Assembly (NCBI RefSeq): GCF_004321985.1
Contig: NZ_SCQN01000034.1
Location: 1-48,538, forward strand
Length of the DNA stretch: 48,538 nt
DNA from: Castellaniella sp.
GTDB taxonomy: Bacteria > Pseudomonadota > Gammaproteobacteria > Burkholderiales > Burkholderiaceae_B
Direction: 5' to 3'
This document shows, piece by piece, positions 35,772 to 48,440 of this stretch. Made by a program: the position numbers and the translations under genes. Within the stretch, counting starts at the first letter, position 1. Every line of letters starts with the position of its first letter. The notes below the pieces were generated by a model. That model did no database searches, was not told the DNA's origin, and was given only the letters and a program-made list of their open reading frames with translations.

Positions 35772-36980
35772 ATGCTGCAACTGAGCACCCACCCGTCCGG
35801 GCGCCACTTCCTTCAGATTCCTGGCCCCACGAACGTCCCCGACCGGATTCTTCGCGCCATCGACCATCCGACCATCGATCACCGCGGGCCTGAGTTCGGC
35901 GCGCTGGGGCGGTCCGTCCTGGCAGGCATGAGAAAGATCTTCCGCACGGAAGGCCACGTCGTGATCTATCCGGCCTCCGGCACCGGGGCCTGGGAGGCCG
36001 CGCTGGTGAATACACTGTCTTCCGGTGACTTGGTGCTCATGGCCGAGACCGGCCACTTTGCCACGTTGTGGAAGAAGATGGCCGAGCGCCTGGGCATCCG
36101 GGTCGAATTCCTGCCGGGGGACTGGCGCCGCGCCGTGGACCCGAAGGACATCGAGGCACACCTGCGGAAGGATGCGCGGCATGAAATCAAGGCCGTGTGC
36201 GTCGTGCACAACGAGACGGCTACCGGGGTGACCAGCGACATCAAGGCGGTACGCGATGCCATCGACCGCGCGGGTCATCCCGCGCTGCTGATGGTAGACA
36301 CGATATCGTCGCTGGGCTCGATCGACTACCGCCATGATGAATGGGGCGTGGACGTCACCGTCGCCGGCTCTCAAAAGGGGCTGATGCTGCCGCCAGGCCT
36401 GTCTTTCAACGCGGTCAGCAGCAAGGCGCTCGCCGCCAGCGAAAAGAACACACTGCCGCGCTCGTTCTGGGATTGGCAGGCCATGATCACCAGTAATGAA
36501 ACGGGGTACTTTCCGTACACGCCATCCACCAACCTGCTCTATGGGCTGCATGAAGCGCTGGAAATGCTCTTCGCCGAGGGGCTGGAAACCGTCTTCGCCC
36601 GGCACAAGCGTCATGCCGAAGCCACACGGCGGGCCGTGCGCGCCTGGGGACTGGAGATTCTGTGCTCGGATCCCGAGCGTTACAGCCCTTCGCTGACCGC
36701 AGTGATGATGCCCGAAGGCCACGGAGCCGACGCCTTTCGCAAGGTGGTGCTGGAGCATTTCAACATGTCCCTGGGCCAGGGGCTGAGCAAGGTCAAGGAC
36801 AAGGTTTTCCGCATCGGGCACTTGGGTGACATCAATGACCTGACGGTGTGCGGGACACTGGCAGGTGTGGAAATGGGGCTCGAACTTGCGCATGTGCCCC
36901 ACCAGAAAGGGGGTGTTCAGGCGGCCATGGCATACCTGGCTGAGCAATCCGAGGTGCGATCCAGGCCACTACAGGAATGA
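35772..36980 (+). CDS. Serine/alanine--glyoxylate aminotransferase family (class V)
   Basis: Class V PLP aminotransferase of 402 residues. Key features are the N-terminal FLQIPGPTNVPDRILRAI, HRGPEFGALGRSV, the SGTGAWEAAL cofactor loop, the Asp in LLMVDTISSLGSID and Lys202 in VAGSQKGLMLPPGL. This pattern is that of serine-glyoxylate aminotransferases of serine-cycle and photorespiratory type. It would convert glyoxylate to glycine, a second outlet besides malate synthase G. AAGGA at 35758-35762 lies nine bases before the ATG. Confidence 0.9.
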   Translation: MLQLSTHPSGRHFLQIPGPTNVPDRILRAIDHPTIDHRGPEFGALGRSVLAGMRKIFRTEGHVVIYPASGTGAWEAALVNTLSSGDLVLMAETGHFATLWKKMAERLGIRVEFLPGDWRRAVDPKDIEAHLRKDARHEIKAVCVVHNETATGVTSDIKAVRDAIDRAGHPALLMVDTISSLGSIDYRHDEWGVDVTVAGSQKGLMLPPGLSFNAVSSKALAASEKNTLPRSFWDWQAMITSNETGYFPYTPSTNLLYGLHEALEMLFAEGLETVFARHKRHAEATRRAVRAWGLEILCSDPERYSPSLTAVMMPEGHGADAFRKVVLEHFNMSLGQGLSKVKDKVFRIGHLGDINDLTVCGTLAGVEMGLELAHVPHQKGGVQAAMAYLAEQSEVRSRPLQE

Positions 36981-37054
36981 GAAGTGGTGCCGCGTGGAGG
37001 CGCGGCGCCGACGTCCCCGCAGTTCACAGGTGGTTCAATCTACAGGAGACAACG

Positions 37055-38074
37055 ATGAAATTCCATCAAAACGGATTCAGGAAGATGGCGCTGGCGGCGG
37101 TTCCGCTGGCCATGGCGGTTGGTTTGGCGACGCCCGCTGCGGCTGCAGGCTGGGAGCCCACGCGCAACGTCGAGGTGATCGTCCCGGCAGGAGCGGGCGG
37201 GGCTTCGGACCAGATGGCGCGCATGATTCAGCACATCGTGCTGGAGCACAAGCTGATGAAACCCTCGATGCTGGTTGTCAACGAGGGCGGCGCGAGCGGT
37301 GCGGAAGGGATCATGGATACGAAGGCATCCAAAGGCGATCCCTACAAGCTGATGGTGGCCTTCTCAGCCATTTATACCTTGCCGATAGCCGTCAAGCTTC
37401 CCTTCAACTGGCGCGATCTCAACCCGGTTGCGATGATTGCTCAGGACGAGTTCCTCCTCTGGGTCAATTCGGCCACGCCCTACAAGACGGCGAAGGAATA
37501 TCTGGACGCTGTGAAGGCGGCACCTTCCGGCAAGTTCAAGATGGGCGGCACGGGCGCCAAGCGTGAAGACCAGATCGTCACCGAGGCGTTGGACAAGGCC
37601 GCTGGTGTCCGCTTCACGTATGTGCCATACAAGAGCGGCGGGGAAGCCGCGACCCAACTGGTGGGCAAGCACATCGATTCCAACGTCAACAACCCCAGCG
37701 AAAACATCGCCCAGTGGCGCGGTGGGGCGCTCAGGCCGCTTTGCGTGTTCTCGGAGCATCGCATGGTCTACAACGACGTCGTCACCAACGGCATTTCCTG
37801 GCATGACATCCCGACCTGCAAGGAAGCGGGCTACGACGTTCAGTACCAGATGCTGCGCGCATTCTTCCTGCCTCCGGACACGACCAAGGAACAGGCCGAT
37901 TTCTACGCCAACATGCTGAAGAAGGTGGTCGAGACGCCCGAATGGAAGGCTTATGTGACCAAGCAGGCGCTCCACTCGGACTATCGGACCGGCAAGGCGT
38001 TCACGGACTTCCTGACCCAGGACGAGGCCTATCACAAGAAGGTCATGGAAGAAGCTGGTCTCGCGGCCAAATAG
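37055..38074 (+). CDS. tctC: Tripartite tricarboxylate transporter substrate-binding protein (Bug/TctC)
   Basis: Periplasmic receptor of 339 residues with a Sec signal (about 31 residues, ending PAAAA). The Bug-fold pattern is VEVIVPAGAGGASDQMARMI after the signal and GGTGAKREDQIVTEAL in the middle (seen as the conserved MGGTGAKREDQ). It captures a carboxylate for the TctA/TctB proteins encoded next. AGGAG lies six bases before the ATG at 37055. Alcaligenaceae carry many such receptors. Ligand unknown; the operon suggests a hydroxy- or unsaturated carboxylate. Confidence 0.92.
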   Translation: MKFHQNGFRKMALAAVPLAMAVGLATPAAAAGWEPTRNVEVIVPAGAGGASDQMARMIQHIVLEHKLMKPSMLVVNEGGASGAEGIMDTKASKGDPYKLMVAFSAIYTLPIAVKLPFNWRDLNPVAMIAQDEFLLWVNSATPYKTAKEYLDAVKAAPSGKFKMGGTGAKREDQIVTEALDKAAGVRFTYVPYKSGGEAATQLVGKHIDSNVNNPSENIAQWRGGALRPLCVFSEHRMVYNDVVTNGISWHDIPTCKEAGYDVQYQMLRAFFLPPDTTKEQADFYANMLKKVVETPEWKAYVTKQALHSDYRTGKAFTDFLTQDEAYHKKVMEEAGLAAK

Positions 38075-38107
38075 CGATCCATCACCCGGAACCTACAGGA
38101 GACACGA

Positions 38108-38617
38108 ATGGATCCGACACCTGTTGAACGAAGCGGGAAGGGGCTGACCTACAGCGGTGTCGGAGCCATCACCGCTGTTGTGATCTTCTTCCTCGGTGTA
38201 GTCATGATGGCCGATAACTCGCGCATCGGTGCCGGCTGGGGCACCGGCGGGCCCCAGCCCGGCTATTTCCCGTTTCATATCGGCGCAATCCTTTGTATCG
38301 CGGCGGCTGTCGTCTGCTTTCAGGCGCTCTTTGGCAAAGGCCGGAATCTCAAGGTCTTCGTCACATGGGATCAGCTCAGGCGCGTGCTGATCGTGCTGAT
38401 ACCGACGGTGGCTTATGTCTTTCTGATTCAGTACGTCGGCATCTATGTGGCATCGGCCATCTTCATTGGTGGGTTCATGCGTGCCCTGGGCAAAACCAGT
38501 TGGCTGCAGACCATCGCGGTCAGCATTGGCGTGAACGTGGTGCTGTTCTGGATGTTCGAGATTCAATTCATGGTGCCCCTGCCAAAAGGGCCACTTGAAG
38601 CCTTCTTCGGCTACTGA
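38108..38617 (+). CDS. tctB: Tripartite tricarboxylate transporter small membrane subunit (TctB)
   Basis: Small membrane protein of 169 residues with four hydrophobic segments and the TctB-type loop GTGGPQPGYFPFHIGAIL near residues 44-61. It forms the membrane part of the importer with TctA. It lies 33 bases after tctC and 21 before tctA. Confidence 0.92.
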   Translation: MDPTPVERSGKGLTYSGVGAITAVVIFFLGVVMMADNSRIGAGWGTGGPQPGYFPFHIGAILCIAAAVVCFQALFGKGRNLKVFVTWDQLRRVLIVLIPTVAYVFLIQYVGIYVASAIFIGGFMRALGKTSWLQTIAVSIGVNVVLFWMFEIQFMVPLPKGPLEAFFGY

Positions 38618-38638
38618 GACGAGCAGGAGTCACATTTC

Positions 38639-40162
38639 ATGGAAAACATAGAAGCCCTGTTCCACGGCTTTTCCATCCTGATGACTTGGTACAACGTCGG
38701 GATGATGATCATCGGCCTGGTGCTGGGTGTGATCATCGGTGTTCTGCCCGGGCTGGGGGGGCCAAACGGTGTGGCGATTTTGCTGCCGCTGACGTTCGGC
38801 ATGTCTCCCACCTCGGCGATCATCATGCTGTCCTGCATCTACTGGGGATCACTGTTCGCGGGTGCCATTACCTCCATTCTGTTCAATATCCCGGGCGAGC
38901 CTTCGTCGGTGGCGACCACCTTCGACGGCTATCCGCTGGCGCAGCAGGGCAGGGCCGGCGAGGCTTTGACGACGTCCTTCACGGGTTCGTTCATCGGTGC
39001 GTTGGTCGGCGTGTTGCTGATTACCTTCCTGGCGCCGTTGGTGTCCAGGTTCGCCTTGAGATTCGGGCCTGCCGAGTTCTTTGCCGTCTTTTTCCTGACG
39101 TTCTGCAGCTTTGTGGGGACGGACAGGAAGGCGCCGTTCAAGACCATCATCTCCATGATGCTGGGGTTCGGCCTGTCGGAGATCGGGATGGACACGGTGA
39201 GCGGCCAGCTTCGCATGACTTTTGGCATGCCGGGCCTGCTGCGGGGCATCGATTTCCTGGTGGTGGTGATCGGCCTGTTCGGCATTGGCGAGATCCTGGT
39301 CAGCATGGAAGAGGGGCTGGCCTTCGAGGGGAAGACCGGGAAGATCAATCTCAAGGTCGTCCTGCAAACCTGGAAGAAATTGCCACGCTACTGGGCGACC
39401 ATCATCCGCAGCACGCTGATCGGCTGCTGGATGGGAGTGACGCCGGGGGGTGCCACGGCGGCGTCCTTCATGGGATACGGAATTGCGCAACGCTTCTCGC
39501 CACGCCGGGACAGGTTCGGTACGGGCGAACTCGAGGGCGTCATTGCGCCTGAGACGGCGGCGCATGGCGCGGGTACGTCGGCCCTGCTGCCCATGCTGGC
39601 GCTCGGGATCCCGGGCTCGGCGACGGCAGCCGTGCTGTTGGGCGGGTTGATGATCTGGGGGCTGGATCCTGGCCCCATGCTGTTCACCGAGCACAAGGAC
39701 TTCGTCTGGGGGCTGATTGCCAGCATGTATCTGGGCAATATCGTCGGATTGATCCTGGTGATGTCCACCGTGCCGTTCTTTGCCGCGGTCCTTCGGATTC
39801 GGTTCGCCATCATCGCCCCCATCATCATCGTGCTGTGCGCGATTGGCGCTTACACCGTACACAATGCGCTGCTGGATGTGTGGTACATGGCGCTCTTCGG
39901 TGTGGTCGGCTATGTCCTGAAGAAGCTGGATTACCCATTGGCGCCGCTGGTGCTGGCATTGGTGCTGGGTGACCGGATGGAAGACGCCTTCCGGCAGGCC
40001 ATGCTGGGGCCCAACACCGGGTTGCACGTTTTCTGGTCCAACGGGCTGGTGGCGACCATCACCGGACTCGCCGTCCTGCTGTTGATCTGGCCGCTGGTGC
40101 TGTTCGTATGGCGCCTGCTGCGCCGGGGCGTGTCCCATCAAGCCGTAGAGAGCAGGTCGTGA
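38639..40162 (+). CDS. tctA: Tripartite tricarboxylate transporter large membrane subunit (TctA)
   Basis: This 507-residue protein has about twelve membrane segments. The paired family motifs are GVLPGLGGPNGVAILLPLTF from residue 34 and GVTPGGATAASFMGYG from residue 266, one in each half. It is the ion-driven channel of the carboxylate importer. Gene order tctC-B-A is standard, and short gaps on both sides place it inside the 32265-42217 operon. Confidence 0.94.
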   Translation: MENIEALFHGFSILMTWYNVGMMIIGLVLGVIIGVLPGLGGPNGVAILLPLTFGMSPTSAIIMLSCIYWGSLFAGAITSILFNIPGEPSSVATTFDGYPLAQQGRAGEALTTSFTGSFIGALVGVLLITFLAPLVSRFALRFGPAEFFAVFFLTFCSFVGTDRKAPFKTIISMMLGFGLSEIGMDTVSGQLRMTFGMPGLLRGIDFLVVVIGLFGIGEILVSMEEGLAFEGKTGKINLKVVLQTWKKLPRYWATIIRSTLIGCWMGVTPGGATAASFMGYGIAQRFSPRRDRFGTGELEGVIAPETAAHGAGTSALLPMLALGIPGSATAAVLLGGLMIWGLDPGPMLFTEHKDFVWGLIASMYLGNIVGLILVMSTVPFFAAVLRIRFAIIAPIIIVLCAIGAYTVHNALLDVWYMALFGVVGYVLKKLDYPLAPLVLALVLGDRMEDAFRQAMLGPNTGLHVFWSNGLVATITGLAVLLLIWPLVLFVWRLLRRGVSHQAVESRS

Positions 40163-40201
40163 TCATGACCCTGGAACCCATGGACATTGGAGGCCGGTCG
40201 A

Positions 40202-40981
40202 ATGCCTGAATTCGTGATGCTGGAACGTGACGCAGGGGTGGCCACTGTCACGCTGAACCGGCCGGAGAAGCTCAATGCGCTGACCAAGCCTCTGTGGCGC
40301 GAGCTGGGAGAGGCCATGCGCCAGCTATCGGACGATGATTCGGTCCGTTGCGTGGTGGTTCGGGGTGCCGGTGAAAAGTCCTTTTCGCCGGGCAACGACA
40401 TTTCTGAGTTCCGGACGGAACGGGCCAACAAGGCCCAGGCCATTCGCTATGGGCAGGTGATGCGCGACACGCTCCAGGCGCTGGAGCAATGCCGGCATCC
40501 TGTGGTGGCTCAGATCCATGGTATCTGCGTCGGGGGCGGGCTGGAGATCGCGTCTTTGTGCGATCTTCGGATCTGCGGTGAGTCCAGCCGCTTCGGGGTG
40601 CCGATCAAGAATTTGGGGCTGGTCATGTCCTACCACGAGCTCGCGCCCCTGGTCGCTCTGGTGGGGCCCGGTATTGCGCGGGAGATCCTGCTGGAAGGCC
40701 GGGTCTTCGGTGCGCAGGAGGCCCTGGCCAAGGGCCTGGTCACGCGGGTGGTACCCGACGATCAGGTGGCCGAGGAAGTCCGTGCGACGGTGCAGCGCAT
40801 CGTGGAGGGTGCTCCGCTGGCGGCACGCTGGCACAAGGCATTCATTCGGCGCATCCAGGAGCCTGAGCCGATTTCCGATGCGGAGCACGAGACCTGTTTC
40901 GATTGCTTCGATACCGAAGATTTCCGCGAGGGCTATGACGCCTTCCTGGCCAAGCGCAAGCCGGCCTTCCGTGCACTTTGA
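40202..40981 (+). CDS. Crotonase-fold protein lacking the second catalytic Glu
   Basis: Enoyl-CoA hydratase/isomerase family, 259 residues. Oxyanion-hole segments are FSPGNDI (61-67) and ICVGGGLE (108-115). Glu115 is present, but the second hydratase Glu is replaced: FGVPIKN has Ile135 where hydratases have FGxPE. It is therefore unlikely to be a simple hydratase; isomerase, hydrolase, lyase or decarboxylase activity on a CoA ester is possible. GGAGG precedes the ATG by eight bases. The CoA-transferase gene follows 12 bases later. Confidence 0.87.
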   Translation: MPEFVMLERDAGVATVTLNRPEKLNALTKPLWRELGEAMRQLSDDDSVRCVVVRGAGEKSFSPGNDISEFRTERANKAQAIRYGQVMRDTLQALEQCRHPVVAQIHGICVGGGLEIASLCDLRICGESSRFGVPIKNLGLVMSYHELAPLVALVGPGIAREILLEGRVFGAQEALAKGLVTRVVPDDQVAEEVRATVQRIVEGAPLAARWHKAFIRRIQEPEPISDAEHETCFDCFDTEDFREGYDAFLAKRKPAFRAL

Positions 40982-40993
40982 GGGAATGAGCCA

Positions 40994-42217
40994 ATGAGCA
41001 CGACTAGCAGGCATCCGGGACCGCTTGCGGGCATGCGGGTCCTGGAGCTTTCCCAGATCATGGCGGGCCCCACGTGCGGCATGATGCTGGCCGACATGGG
41101 GGCCGATGTCATCAAGATTGAGAAACTGCCGGGCGGCGACGATTCGCGCGGCTACCGCGAGCCCGCCGTCAATGGCGTCTCGGCGCCCTTCATGATCCTG
41201 AACCGGAACAAGCGCGGGATGGCCATCAACCTGAAGGATCCCGAGGGCAAGGAAATCCTGCTGCGCATGGTCCGGGATGCCGATGTGCTGACCGAAAATT
41301 ACCGGCTGGGCACCATGGAAAAGCTGGGACTGGAATATGACGTGCTACACGCGATCAACCCAGGGCTCATCTATTGCGCCGTCTCGGGGTATGGCCGGAC
41401 GGGCCCCTATCGCGCCAAGGCCGGTTTCGACCTGATCGCTCAGGGCTTTTCGGGGCTCATGTCCGTGACTGGTGAGCCTGGGCGCCCGCCAGTCAAGACG
41501 GGCAATTCGGTGGCCGACATCAACGCGGGCCTTTTGTCGGTCTCCGGGATCCTGGCGGCTTACGCCCACAAGCTGAAGACCGGCCAGGGACAGGTCGTGG
41601 ACACCTCCCTGATGGAGGCGGCCATGCAGCAGACGTACTGGCAGGCGGCGAGCTATTTTGCGACGGGCGAGTCCCCTGGACCCACCGGGTCGGCCCATTT
41701 GCTGACGGCGCCCTATCAGGCATTTCCCACGCGTGATGGCTGGGTCAACATCGGTGGTGCCAACCAGGGGAACTGGCAGCGGATCGCCGAGGTTCTGGGA
41801 CATCCAGAATGGCGCAGCGACCCCCGGTTCGAGACCAATTCCAGGCGCATGGAGAACATCCAGGACCTGTGCGCAGTCATGAGCGACGTGCTGAAGATGC
41901 AAGATACGGCCTTCTGGGTGGAAGCGTTTGACGCCGCAGGGGTGCCCGCAGGTCCGGTGAACACGATCGGCCAGGCACTGAGCCATCCGCAGGCCCTCGC
42001 GCGCGGCATGGTGATCGAGCTGGAGCACCCGCAGGCGGGGCACACGCAGGCGCTGGGGTGTCCGATCCATTTTTCCCTGACTCCCACGCGGGTCGACCGT
42101 CCGGCGCCGGTGCTGGGTCAGCACACACGTGAACTGCTCCTGGAGTATGGCTATGACGAGGGGCAGATTGCACACTTCGTTGCCGCTGGTGTGGTTGTCG
42201 ATGCATCGGAGGTTTGA
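40994..42217 (+). CDS. CaiB/BaiF (family III) CoA-transferase, second copy
   Basis: This 407-residue family III CoA-transferase has MRVLELSQIMAGPTCGMMLA near residue 15, NKRGMAINLKDPEGK near 72 and catalytic Asp146 in GFDLIAQGFSG. It activates a carboxylate, probably one imported by TctCBA, for the crotonase-like protein just upstream. It seems to end the long operon that starts at 32265. It is clearly diverged from the copy at 21072, so the two are not a recent duplication. Confidence 0.91.
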   Translation: MSTTSRHPGPLAGMRVLELSQIMAGPTCGMMLADMGADVIKIEKLPGGDDSRGYREPAVNGVSAPFMILNRNKRGMAINLKDPEGKEILLRMVRDADVLTENYRLGTMEKLGLEYDVLHAINPGLIYCAVSGYGRTGPYRAKAGFDLIAQGFSGLMSVTGEPGRPPVKTGNSVADINAGLLSVSGILAAYAHKLKTGQGQVVDTSLMEAAMQQTYWQAASYFATGESPGPTGSAHLLTAPYQAFPTRDGWVNIGGANQGNWQRIAEVLGHPEWRSDPRFETNSRRMENIQDLCAVMSDVLKMQDTAFWVEAFDAAGVPAGPVNTIGQALSHPQALARGMVIELEHPQAGHTQALGCPIHFSLTPTRVDRPAPVLGQHTRELLLEYGYDEGQIAHFVAAGVVVDASEV

Positions 42218-43118: not shown

Positions 43119-44678
43119 ATGAGACGGAATGCAATCTTGCTCATGGCTGTCTTGACGGGAGTAGCCGCAGCTCCGGCGCAGGCGAAACCGGATGCGGCCA
43201 AGCTAATGGAAGCGACGATTCAGGGTACGCGGGCACAGTTTGCAGCAGGCGCGCTGACGTGTCATGACCTGGTCGAGTTCTATCTTGACCGGATTCATGC
43301 GTACGACCAGAAGGGCGCAGCCATCAACACGATGTTGTATGTCAATCCCGCGGTGTTGAAAGAGGCCGACCGCATGGATGCTGCGCACAAGGCGGGCAGC
43401 AGCCTGCCGCCGTTGTGGTGTGTGCCTGTCGTCCTGAAAGACAATTACGACACAAAGGATATGCCGACCACAGGTGGTTCGAAGTCATTGCAGAAGGCCC
43501 AGCCCGCCAAGGATGCCACTGTCGTGGCACGGTTGCGCAAGGCAGGTGCACTGGTGCTCGGCAAGACGAATCTGTCCGAATTTGCGCTGACGGGTGTCAC
43601 GCGGAGCTCGCTGGGTGGCCAGACGAAGAATCCCTATGATCTGACGCGCACACCGGGCGGGTCTTCTGGCGGGACAGGCGCTGCACTCGCGGCCAATTTT
43701 GCGCTGGCGGGCACGGGCAGCGACACGGTCAACTCCGTTCGGTCGCCGGCTTCTGCCAATAGCGTGGTGGGTTTCCGCGCGACGAATGGGCTGGTTAGCC
43801 GTGCCGGGATTATTCCGGTATCGGCGACGCAGGATTCCGCAGGCCCTCTTGCCCGTACGGTTAGCGACGTGGCGATCATGTTGCAAGTGATGGCTGGATA
43901 CGATCCGGAGGACCCCAAGACTGGCCTGGCAGTCGGCCATGTCGCACCGTCCTATGTCAGCGCACTGAAGCCGGATGGGCTGAAGAATCTGCGTGTTGGT
44001 GTCCTGAAGACGCTGTTCGGAAACGAGGAGAAAAATCGGCCCGTCAACAAGGTCATGGCGCACGCCATCGACATCATGAAGCAGCAAGGGGCCGTTGTTG
44101 TCGAAGTCGAAAACCCGAAGTTCTTTACCGACATGCTGGGCAAGACAGATGATGTGCAGAAGTTCGAGTACCAGCAACTGCTCAATGGTTATCTTGCGGG
44201 CCAAGGCGATCATGTTCCCGTGCATACCTTGCAGGAGGTTCTGGCGTCCGGAGGCTATGACAAGCAGACACTGCAGAGCTTTCTGCTCGATGCTGAAAAT
44301 CATGGCATGAACGAACCGGAGTACTGGAAGCGCATCACCAACATCCGGGACCTGCGGATTGAACTGGCGAACTTCATGGCCAAGAACCAGCTGGACGTCT
44401 TGGTATTCCCGGAACAGCGGGAGCTGGTTGCGGAGATCAGTACGCTCAATCAGCCCGCCCGGAACGGGCACCTTGCGGCGTTGACCGGATTCCCTGAAAT
44501 TACCCTTCCGGCAGGTTTTTCAGCCCCCACACAGGCTGCCCCGCTCGGGGTCCCGGTAGGATTGTCGATCCTGGGCCGGCCATGGTCCGAGTTCACGCTG
44601 CTGCATGCGGCCTACAGCTTCGAGCAGGCTGCGAACGCGAGAAAACCGCCTCGGTCCACACCACCGTTATCGGAGTGA
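43119..44678 (+). CDS. Secreted amidase (amidase signature family)
   Basis: This 519-residue enzyme has a Sec signal (residues 1-22, AQA at the cleavage site), unusual for an otherwise cytosolic family. The Ser-cis-Ser-Lys triad is complete: Lys107 in VVLKDNYD, Ser182 in GGSSGG and Ser206 in SDTVNSVRSPAS. Spacings of 99 and 24 equal those in fatty acid amide hydrolase. The usual GGS before the nucleophile is changed to VNS. It would hydrolyse an amide in the periplasm. A strong GGAGGAG precedes the ATG. Substrate unknown; it converges with the GntR gene. Confidence 0.9.
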   Translation: MRRNAILLMAVLTGVAAAPAQAKPDAAKLMEATIQGTRAQFAAGALTCHDLVEFYLDRIHAYDQKGAAINTMLYVNPAVLKEADRMDAAHKAGSSLPPLWCVPVVLKDNYDTKDMPTTGGSKSLQKAQPAKDATVVARLRKAGALVLGKTNLSEFALTGVTRSSLGGQTKNPYDLTRTPGGSSGGTGAALAANFALAGTGSDTVNSVRSPASANSVVGFRATNGLVSRAGIIPVSATQDSAGPLARTVSDVAIMLQVMAGYDPEDPKTGLAVGHVAPSYVSALKPDGLKNLRVGVLKTLFGNEEKNRPVNKVMAHAIDIMKQQGAVVVEVENPKFFTDMLGKTDDVQKFEYQQLLNGYLAGQGDHVPVHTLQEVLASGGYDKQTLQSFLLDAENHGMNEPEYWKRITNIRDLRIELANFMAKNQLDVLVFPEQRELVAEISTLNQPARNGHLAALTGFPEITLPAGFSAPTQAAPLGVPVGLSILGRPWSEFTLLHAAYSFEQAANARKPPRSTPPLSE

Positions 44679-44715: not shown

Positions 44716-45456
44716 TCAGTCCTGTGTGAACAGTGCCTCGAGATCCACCTCGGTATCGACCGGATCCAATGCCAGGCTTTCCTGGATATGGTCGAGATGG
44801 CGCACGATCAGTTCGACGGCGGATTTCTCGTCTTTTTCGGTGATGGCGTGGACGATGCATGCGTGTTCGTCCGCCCGGCAACTAAGCGTGGTGGATGCGC
44901 TATAGAGGCTGATGATCAGGCAGGTCTGGGTCGAGAGCTCGCGGGTCGTGCGCAGCAGCGCCGAGTTCTCGACGAGTTCGGCCAGCAGGACGTGGAATTC
45001 GCCGGACAGCCGGATGATGCTGGGCTGATCGTGCCGCCGGCGGGCTTCCTCTTCGCGTGCCAGATGCTGCTGCAACTGCGTCTTCGTTCGGTCGGTCAGC
45101 GTGGTGATCAATTTGCGAACTGTGAATGGCTCGATCAGGCGGCGTGCCTCGAAAACGTCTCTGGCGTCCTGAACGGTCGGCTTGGCTACGTAGGCGCCCT
45201 GGTGCGGCACCAGTTCGACCACCAGGTCGTGCGCCAGACGCGCCAGCACCTCGCGGATGCGGGCCCGGTTGACGGAAAAGATGGTCGCCAGACGCCCTTC
45301 GGCCAGCTTGGTCCCCGGCGGAATGCGGTGTTCGAGAATGGCCGTGTACAGCTTGTCCGCGATCTCGGAAGGACCGAGGTCGCGTGGTTTGTGCGGTGTG
45401 CGCGCTGGCACGTCGTCGGTGGTGTTGTCTGACGCTTTCAGTTGCATGTCCAGCAT
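44716..45456 (-). CDS. GntR-family regulator, FCD subfamily (last gene of the MFS operon)
   Basis: This 246-residue protein has a winged helix at about residues 30-92 (LAEGRLATIFSVNRARIREV, then HQGAYVA) and an FCD domain with SGEFHVLLAEL and DEHACIVHAI as the probable ligand/metal segments. It is downstream of the MFS, AMDase-like and racemase-like genes on the same strand and 62 bases from the last of them, so it is probably co-transcribed and controls their promoter near 48450. ATG 45456 or 45447 could be the start. Confidence 0.88.
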   Translation of the reverse strand: MLDMQLKASDNTTDDVPARTPHKPRDLGPSEIADKLYTAILEHRIPPGTKLAEGRLATIFSVNRARIREVLARLAHDLVVELVPHQGAYVAKPTVQDARDVFEARRLIEPFTVRKLITTLTDRTKTQLQQHLAREEEARRRHDQPSIIRLSGEFHVLLAELVENSALLRTTRELSTQTCLIISLYSASTTLSCRADEHACIVHAITEKDEKSAVELIVRHLDHIQESLALDPVDTEVDLEALFTQD

Positions 45457-45518: not shown

Positions 45519-46265
45519 TCAGCTGCGGCGGGCCAGCAGGTCGGCCAGCGCAGTGGGCAGGCCGGTGTTCGGTTTGATGGGCGGCCGGGCGAAGCTGCCT
45601 TCGACGGCGCCCGTTGGGGCGAGCTTGGCCAGGGTCTCGGCGTGGCAGACGGCGCTCGAGACGCCGTCCACCACAGGGACCGGCAGCCGGTCCTTGACCC
45701 GGCGGGCCAGCCCGGCCAGCGGGGCACCAGCCAGAATGATGACGTCGGCATGATCGTGCGTCACAGCTTCCTGGCACAGTGCGACCAGTTTTTCGGCGTG
45801 GTCATCCTGGACGGTCCCTATGTCGCGCAGTGGATCCTGAAGGTTTCGGATGCTGGCCAGACGCGACGACAGGCCATTGCGTTCCACATTCTCCCGATAC
45901 CAGGACGTGATCCGTGACGAGATGGCGATGATGGAGAAGCGCTGGCCGAGCATGCTGGCCGTCATCAGTGCGGCCTCGGTCAGGCCCACGACCGGGATGT
46001 CCATGGCCTCTCGCAACCCTGTGATGCCGGGGTCCCCAAAAGCCGCCACGATCATCGCGTCGTGGTTTGACGCGTGTTCGGCCGCCAGCAGTGCGGTGGC
46101 GTAGCCGGCAATCAGGGATTCGAAACGCGTCTCGATGTAGGCGACACCGAGTTGTGCCGTCAGCGTCGTGATTTGCGTATCCGGCGCGGCGACACGGCGG
46201 GCTTCAGCGTCGATCAGGTCGCTGACGCTGGTGGATGTGTTTGGGTTGATGATCAGTAGCCGCAT
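45519..46265 (-). CDS. Asp/Glu/hydantoin racemase-fold protein lacking both catalytic cysteines
   Basis: This 248-residue protein of the Asp/Glu racemase superfamily, hydantoin-racemase branch, has LLIINPNTSTSVSDLI at the N-terminus and AAFGDPGI, VVGLTEAAL and FSIIAISSR further on. Hydantoin racemases use two cysteines, in ACFGDPG (about 76) and GCAGMA (about 181). Here these are Ala75 and Ala181 (LAGAPLAG), so two-base racemisation is ruled out if the alignment holds. It might bind rather than racemise, or use another chemistry. It lies between the AMDase-like gene (46 bases) and the GntR gene. Confidence 0.85.
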   Translation of the reverse strand: MRLLIINPNTSTSVSDLIDAEARRVAAPDTQITTLTAQLGVAYIETRFESLIAGYATALLAAEHASNHDAMIVAAFGDPGITGLREAMDIPVVGLTEAALMTASMLGQRFSIIAISSRITSWYRENVERNGLSSRLASIRNLQDPLRDIGTVQDDHAEKLVALCQEAVTHDHADVIILAGAPLAGLARRVKDRLPVPVVDGVSSAVCHAETLAKLAPTGAVEGSFARPPIKPNTGLPTALADLLARRS

Positions 46266-46311: not shown

Positions 46312-47031
46312 TCAGTCGAACAGTTTCCCCCAGCCCTTGACGGTTCCAGGTGGGAATCCCATCATCTGCAGCGCCTTCCAGACAACCACCGAGACAGAAT
46401 CGTAGATGGGGATGCCGGTTTCGCGCTCCAGCGCGTCGGCCAGATGCGCGGCGCGCAGGTTCGTGCACATCACGGTCATGGCGTCCGGGCGGGATTGGGC
46501 GACGGTTCGCAGCAGTTGCGCCAGCGTGTCCGGTTCCACGAGCCCGAATTCGTGATTGACTGTCAACCCCAGGTGCGCCTCTTGTGAGCAGTCGATCCCC
46601 ATCGCCCGATAGTTGCCGATGATGCGCCGTTGCACCTCTTCGATATAGGGTGATACGAGTCCCAGTTTGCGGACGCCGGCGCGCTGCAGCAGTTCGTTCA
46701 GGGCCAGGACCGAGGTGGTCGCGGGGATGCCCGTTTCCCGTTCGATGGCGCGGCACAGCGCGATGTCTTGTTCGACGCCCAGCCAGCTTGCGGCCGTCCC
46801 GCTCCAGCAGATGACGCCGACTTTGGCGTCAGCCAGCAGGCGTGCCGCTTGCAGGATGGTGTTGATATCGAATTGGCCCACCGACTGCTGGCGCATGGAG
46901 ATCTCCGTCACCGTAAAGCGCGAGAAGTGGGCCGATACACCGGGGACTCCGGCCACGATCGCGCTGGTCAGCGGCTCCAGTGCCGTGTTCGAAGACGGGG
47001 TCAGCACCCCGATGAATTTTCTGGCTGTCAT
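46312..47031 (-). CDS. Maleate isomerase / arylmalonate decarboxylase family enzyme, Gly/Cys type
   Basis: This 239-residue protein (AMDase of Bordetella has 240) has Asn15 in PSSNT, Gly78-Thr79 in ICWSGTAAS, Tyr129 in SPYIEEV and Cys189 in VMCTNLR. In maleate isomerase the position of Gly78 is a cysteine; in arylmalonate decarboxylase it is Gly74, followed by Thr and paired with a single Cys188. The C-terminal WGKLFD also resembles AMDase. It therefore looks like a single-cysteine enzyme that may decarboxylate a substituted malonate, though PSSNT is the isomerase form (inference). It starts 10 bases after the MFS stop. Confidence 0.82.
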   Translation of the reverse strand: MTARKFIGVLTPSSNTALEPLTSAIVAGVPGVSAHFSRFTVTEISMRQQSVGQFDINTILQAARLLADAKVGVICWSGTAASWLGVEQDIALCRAIERETGIPATTSVLALNELLQRAGVRKLGLVSPYIEEVQRRIIGNYRAMGIDCSQEAHLGLTVNHEFGLVEPDTLAQLLRTVAQSRPDAMTVMCTNLRAAHLADALERETGIPIYDSVSVVVWKALQMMGFPPGTVKGWGKLFD

Positions 47032-47041
47032 GCCTGGCCTC

Positions 47042-48358
47042 TCAGATGGGGATCTTCTTGTCGTAGTCGATCAGCATCGTCGAGGTGATGAGGAGCCCGA
47101 TGCCGGCGCCGGTGAACATCATCAGCGCGTAGAAGTATGAACCAGTGTTCTGAACGATCAGGCCAACGATGATGGGCACCCCGATCCCGGCGAAGTTGCC
47201 GCCGAGGTTCATGAAACCGCCCAGGAAACCGACCCGCTTCCGGGTGCCGATGATGGATGGGATTGCCCAGAAGACTCCGCACCAGCGCAGGAAGAACAGC
47301 GTGGCCGACAACAGGGCGACGACGGCGATGGGGTTTTTCACTTCAGACACGCTGAAGATGGCGATTGTCGCGAGGATGGATGCGATCCCGAACAGGGTCC
47401 GCAGGACCCGTCCCTGGCGGGCGCCGGCGCTGATCCATTTGTCGGCGATCCAGCCGCCTACGAGTTCGCCGATGAAGCCGGCAAAGAACATGATGAAGAC
47501 CGCCCCACCCATTTCCTTGATGTTGAAGCCATGTACTGCGGCCAGGTAATTGGGCATCCAGGTCAGCAGCCCATAAAAGAGGGTGTTGAAGAACATCCAG
47601 CCGAAAAACATCCCCCACACAGACCGGTAGCCCAGGAACTGGATCAGGGTTCCCCTGGATGTGTCCGGTTCCAGGGCTGCGTCGGCGGCGTGGGCGGATT
47701 CAATGTATTCGGCTTCCGCATCATTGACAGCCGGGTGCTGCCGCGGGTGATCGCGGATGACGCGCCAGGCCAGCCAGCCCGCGAACATCGTCCCGACGCC
47801 GGCCACGATGAAGGCGATTCGCCAGGACCCGAACCAGGCAATCAGCCCGGAAATCACCAGGGCGCCCAGGGCGGAGCCCAGTGGCGCGCCGCCATCGAGC
47901 AGCGTGGCACCGCGCCCGCGTTCGGTCTGCGTCATCCAGATGCCGTTGAGCTTGCCGCCGGCCGGGTAGATGGGCGCTTCGGCGGCACCCAGCCCCAGAC
48001 GTGTGGCAGCCAGGCCGACCCAGCCGGTGCAGACGCTGGCGATGGCCTGGAACAGACCCCATCCGATCGTCGCGCCGACGATCGTTTTCCGGGGGCCGAA
48101 TCGGTCGGCCAGCATGCCGCCGGGGATCTGCATGAAAGCGTAGGTCCAGAAGAACGAGCTCAGGAGTATCCCCTGGGTGGCGGGTCCGATGTCGAAGTCC
48201 TTGCCGATCAGGGGCATCGCCACCGAGATGGAGGCACGGTCGATGTAGTTGATGGAAATCAGCAGAAGCATCAGCAGAAAGATGCGCCATCGAACGCGCG
48301 TCGGCTCGGCGGCGTCAGAGAGTGCGAGTGCGGGCATCGCAGTTGCGGCTTTGTTCAT
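47042..48358 (-). CDS. MFS transporter, anion:cation symporter (ACS) type
   Basis: This 438-residue protein has twelve membrane segments in two halves with a hydrophilic loop near residue 205-235. The ACS-type signature NYIDRASISVAMP follows the first segment, and GGMLADRFGPRK is motif A. Relatives take up sugar acids, phthalate or other organic anions. GGAG six bases upstream favours the ATG at 48358 over 48373. First gene of the operon with the AMDase-like, racemase-like and GntR genes, so it probably imports their substrate. Confidence 0.92.
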   Translation of the reverse strand: MNKAATAMPALALSDAAEPTRVRWRIFLLMLLLISINYIDRASISVAMPLIGKDFDIGPATQGILLSSFFWTYAFMQIPGGMLADRFGPRKTIVGATIGWGLFQAIASVCTGWVGLAATRLGLGAAEAPIYPAGGKLNGIWMTQTERGRGATLLDGGAPLGSALGALVISGLIAWFGSWRIAFIVAGVGTMFAGWLAWRVIRDHPRQHPAVNDAEAEYIESAHAADAALEPDTSRGTLIQFLGYRSVWGMFFGWMFFNTLFYGLLTWMPNYLAAVHGFNIKEMGGAVFIMFFAGFIGELVGGWIADKWISAGARQGRVLRTLFGIASILATIAIFSVSEVKNPIAVVALLSATLFFLRWCGVFWAIPSIIGTRKRVGFLGGFMNLGGNFAGIGVPIIVGLIVQNTGSYFYALMMFTGAGIGLLITSTMLIDYDKKIPI

Positions 48359-48440
48359 GGTTGTCTCCGTCATATGAGCCCGGGTGGGCGCTTATCTTTG
48401 ACGAGCCTATGCTACCTTCCTGGTGAGGGTGTCAGAATTA

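Follow-up and report, generated by a model that had tools for sequence, protein, structure and literature searches.

Organization of the locus

The gene under study (P0001) lies near one end of the window, the whole 48,538-nucleotide stretch of DNA that was analyzed. Its reading frame runs on the minus strand from ATG to stop and encodes 239 amino acids; the corresponding plus-strand frame is interrupted by stops. The earlier note had placed the gene correctly without naming its strand, which is supplied here together with the positions of the neighboring genes and active-site codons (Table 1). The gene belongs to a tight minus-strand run of four in the order MFS transporter, focal gene, racemase homologue and GntR/FCD regulator, the last of which is likely to be the regulator of this locus. 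The source genome (G000) is available as 86 contigs and carries a paralogue of the focal gene, 48% identical, next to a TRAP transporter on contig C27.

Further along the window, a separate plus-strand cluster for carboxylate uptake and CoA activation contains a TctC-type receptor, an enoyl-CoA hydratase and a CaiB-type CoA-transferase, all recognized by Pfam; two ORFs lying between these genes resemble TctB and TctA in location and sequence.

Table 1. Genes of the locus and codons of the focal protein discussed in the text
Feature	Position	Strand	Remarks
Focal gene P0001, 239 aa	46312..47031	minus	Single-cysteine Gly78/Cys189 protein; AMDase/maleate isomerase branch, Asp/Glu racemase superfamily
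Asn15 codon (TPSSNT)	46987..46989	minus	Isomerase-type; N in 42/43 family rows
Cys75 codon	46807..46809	minus	Variable; C in 8/43 family rows
Gly78-Thr79 codons	46795..46800	minus	Gly78 on AMDase Gly74 and on the first Cys of maleate isomerase 4fq7
Tyr129 codon	46645..46647	minus	On AMDase Tyr126 and the PY tyrosine of 4fq7; Y in 43/43
Asn159 codon	46555..46557	minus	At the AMDase Val156 position; matches an Asn of 4fq7; N in 43/43
Cys189 codon	46465..46467	minus	Sole cysteine at a superfamily catalytic position; C in 43/43 family rows
MFS transporter	47042..48373	minus	10 bp upstream of the focal gene; also adjoins it in L048–L050 and others
Hydantoin/allantoin-racemase homologue	45519..46265	minus	46 bp downstream of the focal gene; both catalytic Cys positions replaced
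GntR/FCD-family transcriptional regulator	44716..45456	minus	62 bp gap after the racemase homologue; a GntR gene near the family gene in 31/40 loci
Amidase-signature enzyme	43119..44678	plus	Convergent with the GntR gene (ends face each other)
Carboxylate uptake and CoA activation cluster	36977..42217	plus	

Family assignment and predicted fold

Searches against Pfam gave 73.5 bits with the Amdase family (PF17645; cut-off 25.9), above chance, and a score just short of the cut-off with the Asp/Glu racemase family (PF01177; 30.8 against 31). The best NCBIfam score was obtained with EutA (TIGR02990), at 80.8 bits and far under its cut-off of 318, and the arylmalonate decarboxylase equivalog (arylmal_decarb, NF052327) gave 61.4 bits, far under its cut-off of 225. 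The predicted structure, built from only 5 sequences, had a mean pLDDT of 70.9 and a pTM of 0.72, with low-confidence segments at residues 13–17, 38–53, 157–163 and 235–239; pLDDT was below 50 in the two segments around Asn15 (13–17) and Asn159 (157–163). Foldseek ranks 1–28 were taken by AMDase, maleate isomerases and 4ix1 and 2dgd, two relatives without assigned function, with TM scores of 0.71–0.84; AMDase and the maleate isomerases scored 0.76–0.84, and racemases followed at about 0.6. On both sequence and fold similarity, the protein belongs to the AMDase/maleate isomerase branch of the Asp/Glu racemase superfamily.

The view in the earlier note that its body is not close to AMDase agrees with the 21–25% identity found among the Foldseek alignments listed, and identity to the maleate isomerases was 22–23% (2xec/2xed) and 19–20% (4fq5/4fq7). 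A profile made from 19 family members gave similar scores for AMDase (77.7 bits) and maleate isomerase 4fq7 (72.6 bits).

Active-site residues

Conservation was scored over 43 family rows, comprising 42 relatives, one of which is the paralogue from G000 itself, and the window gene refetched as L002, with P0001 itself uncounted. These rows were chosen by possession of Trp76 and Gly78, so that the presence of both residues in 43/43 rows is by construction. Both are also invariant in a 19-row alignment (A2), and the tree clade described below, built without this filter, contains the same rows only (L002 and L075 left out) and no row without the two residues. Thr79, Pro128, Tyr129, Asn159, Cys189, Asn191, Asp211 and Trp218 are invariant in all 43 rows; the single exception at Asn15 is L075, in which the N-terminal part is unaligned. 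Cys93 is invariant in alignment A2 and sits in a predicted helix.

The five residues on which the earlier note was built (Asn15, Gly78, Thr79, Tyr129 and Cys189) were found at the numbers it gave. Phmmer, profile and MAFFT alignments all place Gly78-Thr79, Tyr129 and Cys189 on AMDase Gly74-Thr75, Tyr126 and Cys188, as it had claimed, and Cys189 also aligns with the second catalytic cysteine of maleate isomerase. Its reading of Asn15 as an isomerase signature was borne out by alignment with the Asn of the PSSN motif in maleate isomerase 4fq7. Asn15, Tyr129 and Asn159 together align with an Asn, a Tyr and an Asn of 4fq7 that we take to be the carboxylate clamp of that enzyme, and Gly78 occupies the position of its first cysteine, which is presumably catalytic. 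With these residues present in all family rows, or in all but one for Asn15, the mixed active site, with an AMDase-like Gly-Thr…Tyr…Cys arrangement and isomerase-like Asn15 and Asn159, is, as judged from the alignments, real and conserved.

Cys189 occupies the position of the cysteine in (R)-selective AMDases. The pair Gly74 and Cys188 is listed as criterion 10 for AMDases in PMC4996985, which gives Gly/Cys as their normal state, and Gly78/Cys189 reproduces it here. The alignments and the 43 family rows thus uphold the description of a natural Gly/Cys protein with one cysteine at the superfamily's catalytic positions. A second cysteine in the pocket, for which Cys75 had been named in advance, would have contradicted that description; position 75 is Cys in only 8 of the 43 rows and Ala, Gly, Ser, Thr, Val, Ile or Leu in the others, and this variability rules out Cys75 as a second catalytic cysteine. 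The further suggestion of an intermediate type stands as regards the mixture of AMDase and isomerase residues; it does not as regards a lone intermediate, the protein being one member of a large conserved family.

Comparison with AMDase, maleate isomerase and EutA

The protein shares with AMDase (EC 4.1.1.76, Bordetella bronchiseptica; PDB 3dg9/3ip8) the fold family, the Gly-Thr and Tyr residues, the single second-position cysteine and a G.LF-type C-terminal end. The AMDase dioxyanion hole (Thr75, Ser76, Tyr126 and Gly189) is retained at Thr79 and Tyr129 but not at the remaining positions: Ser76 corresponds to Ala80 (Ser in 33 and Ala in 10 of the 43 rows) and Gly189 to Thr190 (Thr in 42, Ser in 1). 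Pro14 and Pro15 of the large AMDase binding pocket are Pro12 and Ser13, and the hydrophobic pocket residues Leu40, Val43, Tyr48, Val156 and Met159 are replaced by Met46, Gln49, Phe54, Asn159 and Phe162; the change of Val156 to Asn was confirmed by profile alignment, the placement of 43–54 being less certain. The AMDase motifs LMGTSLSF and ILLSCGGL read WSGTAASW and MTVMCTNL. In the alignment behind the pocket and motif comparisons, identical relatives were collapsed. Val156 is among the residues forming the hydrophobic pocket that destabilizes the leaving carboxylate in AMDase (PMC4996985), and its replacement by the polar Asn159 speaks against the new decarboxylase that had been proposed.

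Maleate cis-trans isomerase (4fq7, 2xec) offers the complementary likeness, in its TPSSN/PSSN start, PY tyrosine, Asn159 equivalent and second cysteine. It differs at the first cysteine, in place of which the focal protein has Gly78 followed by Thr79, so the two-cysteine arrangement is absent. EutA, of ectoine utilization, resembles the focal protein in the CT motif at the second cysteine and in its tie to N-heterocycle catabolism, but the two EutA proteins compared have a cysteine at the first position (YGCTAAS, YSCTSAS), and the four genes of the window operon include no eut gene.

Distribution and phylogeny

Matches at 1e-20 were found in 41 of 200 genomes of the window's taxonomic family, and 30 of these 41 (G000 included) carry a copy at 41% identity or above. 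Among 348 genomes sampled across the phylum, in which all matches other than G000 fall outside that taxonomic family, 17 matched at 1e-40. The gene also occurs in plasmid records of Paraburkholderia, Cupriavidus, Rhizobium, Azospirillum, Klebsiella, Paracoccus and others; the annotated plasmid copies listed are mostly named "aspartate/glutamate racemase family protein", with one "Asp/Glu/hydantoin racemase" and one "hypothetical protein".

In a tree of rows cut to 260 residues (L002, which is the window gene again, and L075 left out; several branches long), the focal family formed a clade of 42 rows (support 100/99) apart from 15 AMDases (100/100). Joining the focal clade and AMDase as one group was not rejected by the AU test (p 0.25), and the tree requires a minimum of 2 changes at the first catalytic residue; on these two results, a twofold, independent origin of the Gly/Cys pair is not shown. 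The focal family is not alone in lacking the first cysteine, since distant relatives have Cys, Gly or Ala at this position. Single-cysteine relatives that keep the second cysteine have either Gly in first place (L120, L121, L123, L124 and L130; FGGTSAS) or Ala (L046, L112–L116, L122 and L125; GATAPS, SATAPS, AATAPS or AATAPT).

Association with hydantoinase genes

At 31 of 39 relatives' loci, a gene for a hydantoinase/dihydropyrimidinase (HydA) is found no more than 7 kb from the family gene, compared with 0 of 15 AMDase loci, a small control in which 9 of the 15 come from one genus (g2) and one (L109) spans only 8 kb. Over 40 loci including the window, a GntR gene was found near the family gene in 31 (window included), a TRAP transporter in 15, an ABC transporter in 13, an MFS transporter in 11 and a racemase homologue in 15. 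Neighbors were labeled by BLAST to named proteins at 35% identity or above, a threshold at which the labels "ABC", "GntR" and "TRAP" are loose. The 40 loci include near-duplicates (L048–L050, L053/L076, L068/L069 and L060/L073) and more distant members (L047 and L070–L072), and leave out L034 and L035 (contigs of L068/L069), L067 (the own-genome paralogue) and L111.

The same association was seen in the phylum sample, where HydA at 1e-80 was present in all 17 family-carrying genomes, G000 among them, and in 73 of 331 without the family, a figure possibly undercounted where relatives are many, as at most 4 candidates were scored per genome. Fisher's test, which ignores relatedness, gave p 3e-11, or 1e-10 without G000. 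For 12 of the 17 copies outside G000, HydA is at most 5 kb away, and for 9 of these the distance is no more than 100 bp; HydA is not nearby at 5 of 17 copies in this sample and at 8 of the 39 relatives' loci. The HydA proteins of L048 and L036 exceeded the cut-offs of the NCBIfam models for D-hydantoinase and dihydropyrimidinase.

The nearest relatives by tree, L048–L050, have the order MFS transporter, focal gene, HydA, racemase homologue and GntR. In the laboratory strain Cupriavidus metallidurans CH34 (L038), the order is MFS transporter, family gene, HydA and racemase homologue, with a divergently oriented GntR gene. The window has the same order minus HydA: a 46 bp gap stands at its place, and tblastn across the window gave a best E value of 1.4, at chance level. 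HydA was likewise not seen near the paralogue on contig C27. G000 has two HydA genes, on contigs C57 and C86, one of which is cut by a contig end. The C57 HydA shares 83% identity with its counterpart in a TRAP-linked Castellaniella locus (L034); between C57 and either the window or C27, no end overlap of at least 15 bases was found.

The annotation of two relatives' neighborhoods also includes DUF3830 genes (L036, 11031–11450; L040, 11073–11480), the former confirmed by PF12903; no paper under the name DUF3830 was found in the literature collection searched.

A racemase homologue without catalytic cysteines

The PDB matches closest to the racemase homologue of the window are allantoin/hydantoin racemases, but its two catalytic cysteine positions are occupied by Ala and Gly (AAFGDPG and LAGAPLAG). 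Both cysteines are absent in 14 of 14 rows at least 60% identical to a named reference (the window and 13 from relatives' loci); four further rows, at 28–40% identity, have other motifs. Racemases of the superfamily use two cysteines (PMC4996985, on the second active-site cysteine). Two members of this superfamily, one with a single catalytic cysteine and one with none, are thus encoded side by side in the operon.

In its relatives, the locus resembles hydantoin-utilization operons, with a D-hydantoinase/dihydropyrimidinase neighbor, a racemase homologue, a transporter and a regulator. It differs from them in having two racemase-superfamily proteins, with one and zero catalytic cysteines, respectively, and in that HydA is missing beside the window copy.

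Proposed function

Because its relatives usually lie beside a hydantoinase gene, the focal enzyme probably contributes to the bacterial breakdown of cyclic nitrogen compounds and not to that of arylmalonates. This hydantoin/dihydropyrimidine-type ring opening, indicated by the neighbors, was absent from the earlier note. The fold family, the pattern of residues and the association with the operon are results of the analysis; from them we infer a chemistry and a substrate class, and we tentatively favor a role in which the family acts alongside a HydA-type cyclic amidohydrolase as a cyclic ureide or imide is taken up and degraded, contributing a one-cysteine proton transfer. A small two-carbonyl substrate would be held at both ends, as in maleate isomerase, by Asn15, Tyr129, Asn159 and the Thr79 and Thr190 loops; a two-end hold is favored since the residue matching AMDase Val156 is an invariant Asn common with maleate isomerase. 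An enediolate-like intermediate may then form without a cofactor, and Cys189, which is proposed to act alone because the opposite cysteine is Gly78, would donate or accept the proton. The net reaction would most likely be a one-sided proton-transfer isomerization of the cyclic substrate or of its ring-opened N-carbamoyl or half-amide product. Decarboxylation would rank second, although it is equally compatible with one cysteine, since single-cysteine AMDases decarboxylate.

A more specific form of this proposal, which we consider possible but hold with some doubt, is an undescribed cofactor-free enzyme that has a maleate isomerase-type clamp, has lost the nucleophilic cysteine and performs a one-cysteine, stereospecific step in cyclic ureide or imide catabolism, paired with a Cys-less protein of the racemase fold. 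The partner would then have to rely on another chemistry or play no part in catalysis.

In the main alternative, decarboxylation would act on a substituted malonate made by the pathway itself. HydA would open a carboxylated ring (5-carboxy-dihydropyrimidine, with its carboxylate next to a ring carbonyl, would serve as an example), and the resulting ureido-substituted malonate would be decarboxylated, with Cys189 protonating as in AMDase. The Gly78-Thr79/Cys189 arrangement of AMDase, the rank of AMDase as top PDB sequence match and top Pfam family, and the AU test result all accord with such a reaction. We nevertheless regard it as doubtful, as the AMDase hydrophobic pocket is not kept (Val156 is the invariant Asn, and Val43 aligns, with less certain placement, with Gln49), Gly189 and Pro15 have become Thr190 and Ser13, none of the 15 AMDase loci has a HydA neighbor, and the window operon, with its four genes, shows no likely producer of such a malonate.

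The enzyme might instead be a cis-trans isomerase for a maleate-like or a maleamate- or ureidoacrylate-like ring-opening product, with Cys189 replacing the missing first-cysteine nucleophile. The HydA family includes imide-opening enzymes, an amidase lies near the family gene in 4 of 40 loci (window included), and maleate isomerase 4fq7 has the same residues at the positions of Asn15, Tyr129, Asn159 and Cys189. This is unlikely, however, in that the first cysteine of maleate isomerase, reportedly its nucleophile, is Gly throughout the focal family.

Hydantoinase operons often contain a racemase, and with both catalytic cysteines missing from the neighboring homologue in every close row, the focal protein could be its replacement, a one-cysteine racemase or epimerase that acts on a hydantoin or an N-carbamoyl amino acid and uses a residue other than cysteine as its second base. 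We consider this more unlikely still: position 78 is Gly, no second base is obvious, and a racemase homologue at only 15 of 40 loci means that the focal gene does not track it.

An ordinary arylmalonate decarboxylase, in spite of the PF17645 score and the Gly/Cys pair, is hardly credible and was rejected, given the failed NCBIfam cut-off (61.4 against 225 bits), the departures from several of the 12 published AMDase criteria (dioxyanion hole, Pro-Pro, hydrophobic pocket and motifs among them), the separate tree clade and the different neighbors. An ergothioneine-type desulfhydrase was also considered and found unsupported, the literature search giving nothing useful.

Relation to published work and annotation

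The natural substrate of AMDase is stated to be unknown in the discussion of PMC4996985. The focal family has the Gly/Cys arrangement of AMDase yet sits inside recognizable catabolic operons with a hydantoinase, which makes its physiological substrate findable. The titles and starts of abstracts searched contained no description of the focal subfamily, and by title none of the 10 matches listed out of 78 on the cyclic imide pathway dealt with it; the subfamily appears to be uncharacterized. The window operon provides a natural comparison of the effect of one versus no cysteine on the chemistry of one fold, and the family supplies new cofactor-free enzymes whose pocket is polar. The label "racemase" carried by most of the annotated plasmid copies listed sits uneasily with these residues, as a two-base racemase needs a second base and none is evident here.

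Three relatives at 41–42% identity (L071, L072 and the second copy in L070) have about 150 additional C-terminal residues. The tail of L072 contains a GAF domain according to Pfam and the other two tails look alike, which suggests, from sequence, sensory or allosteric control of a racemase-type fold.
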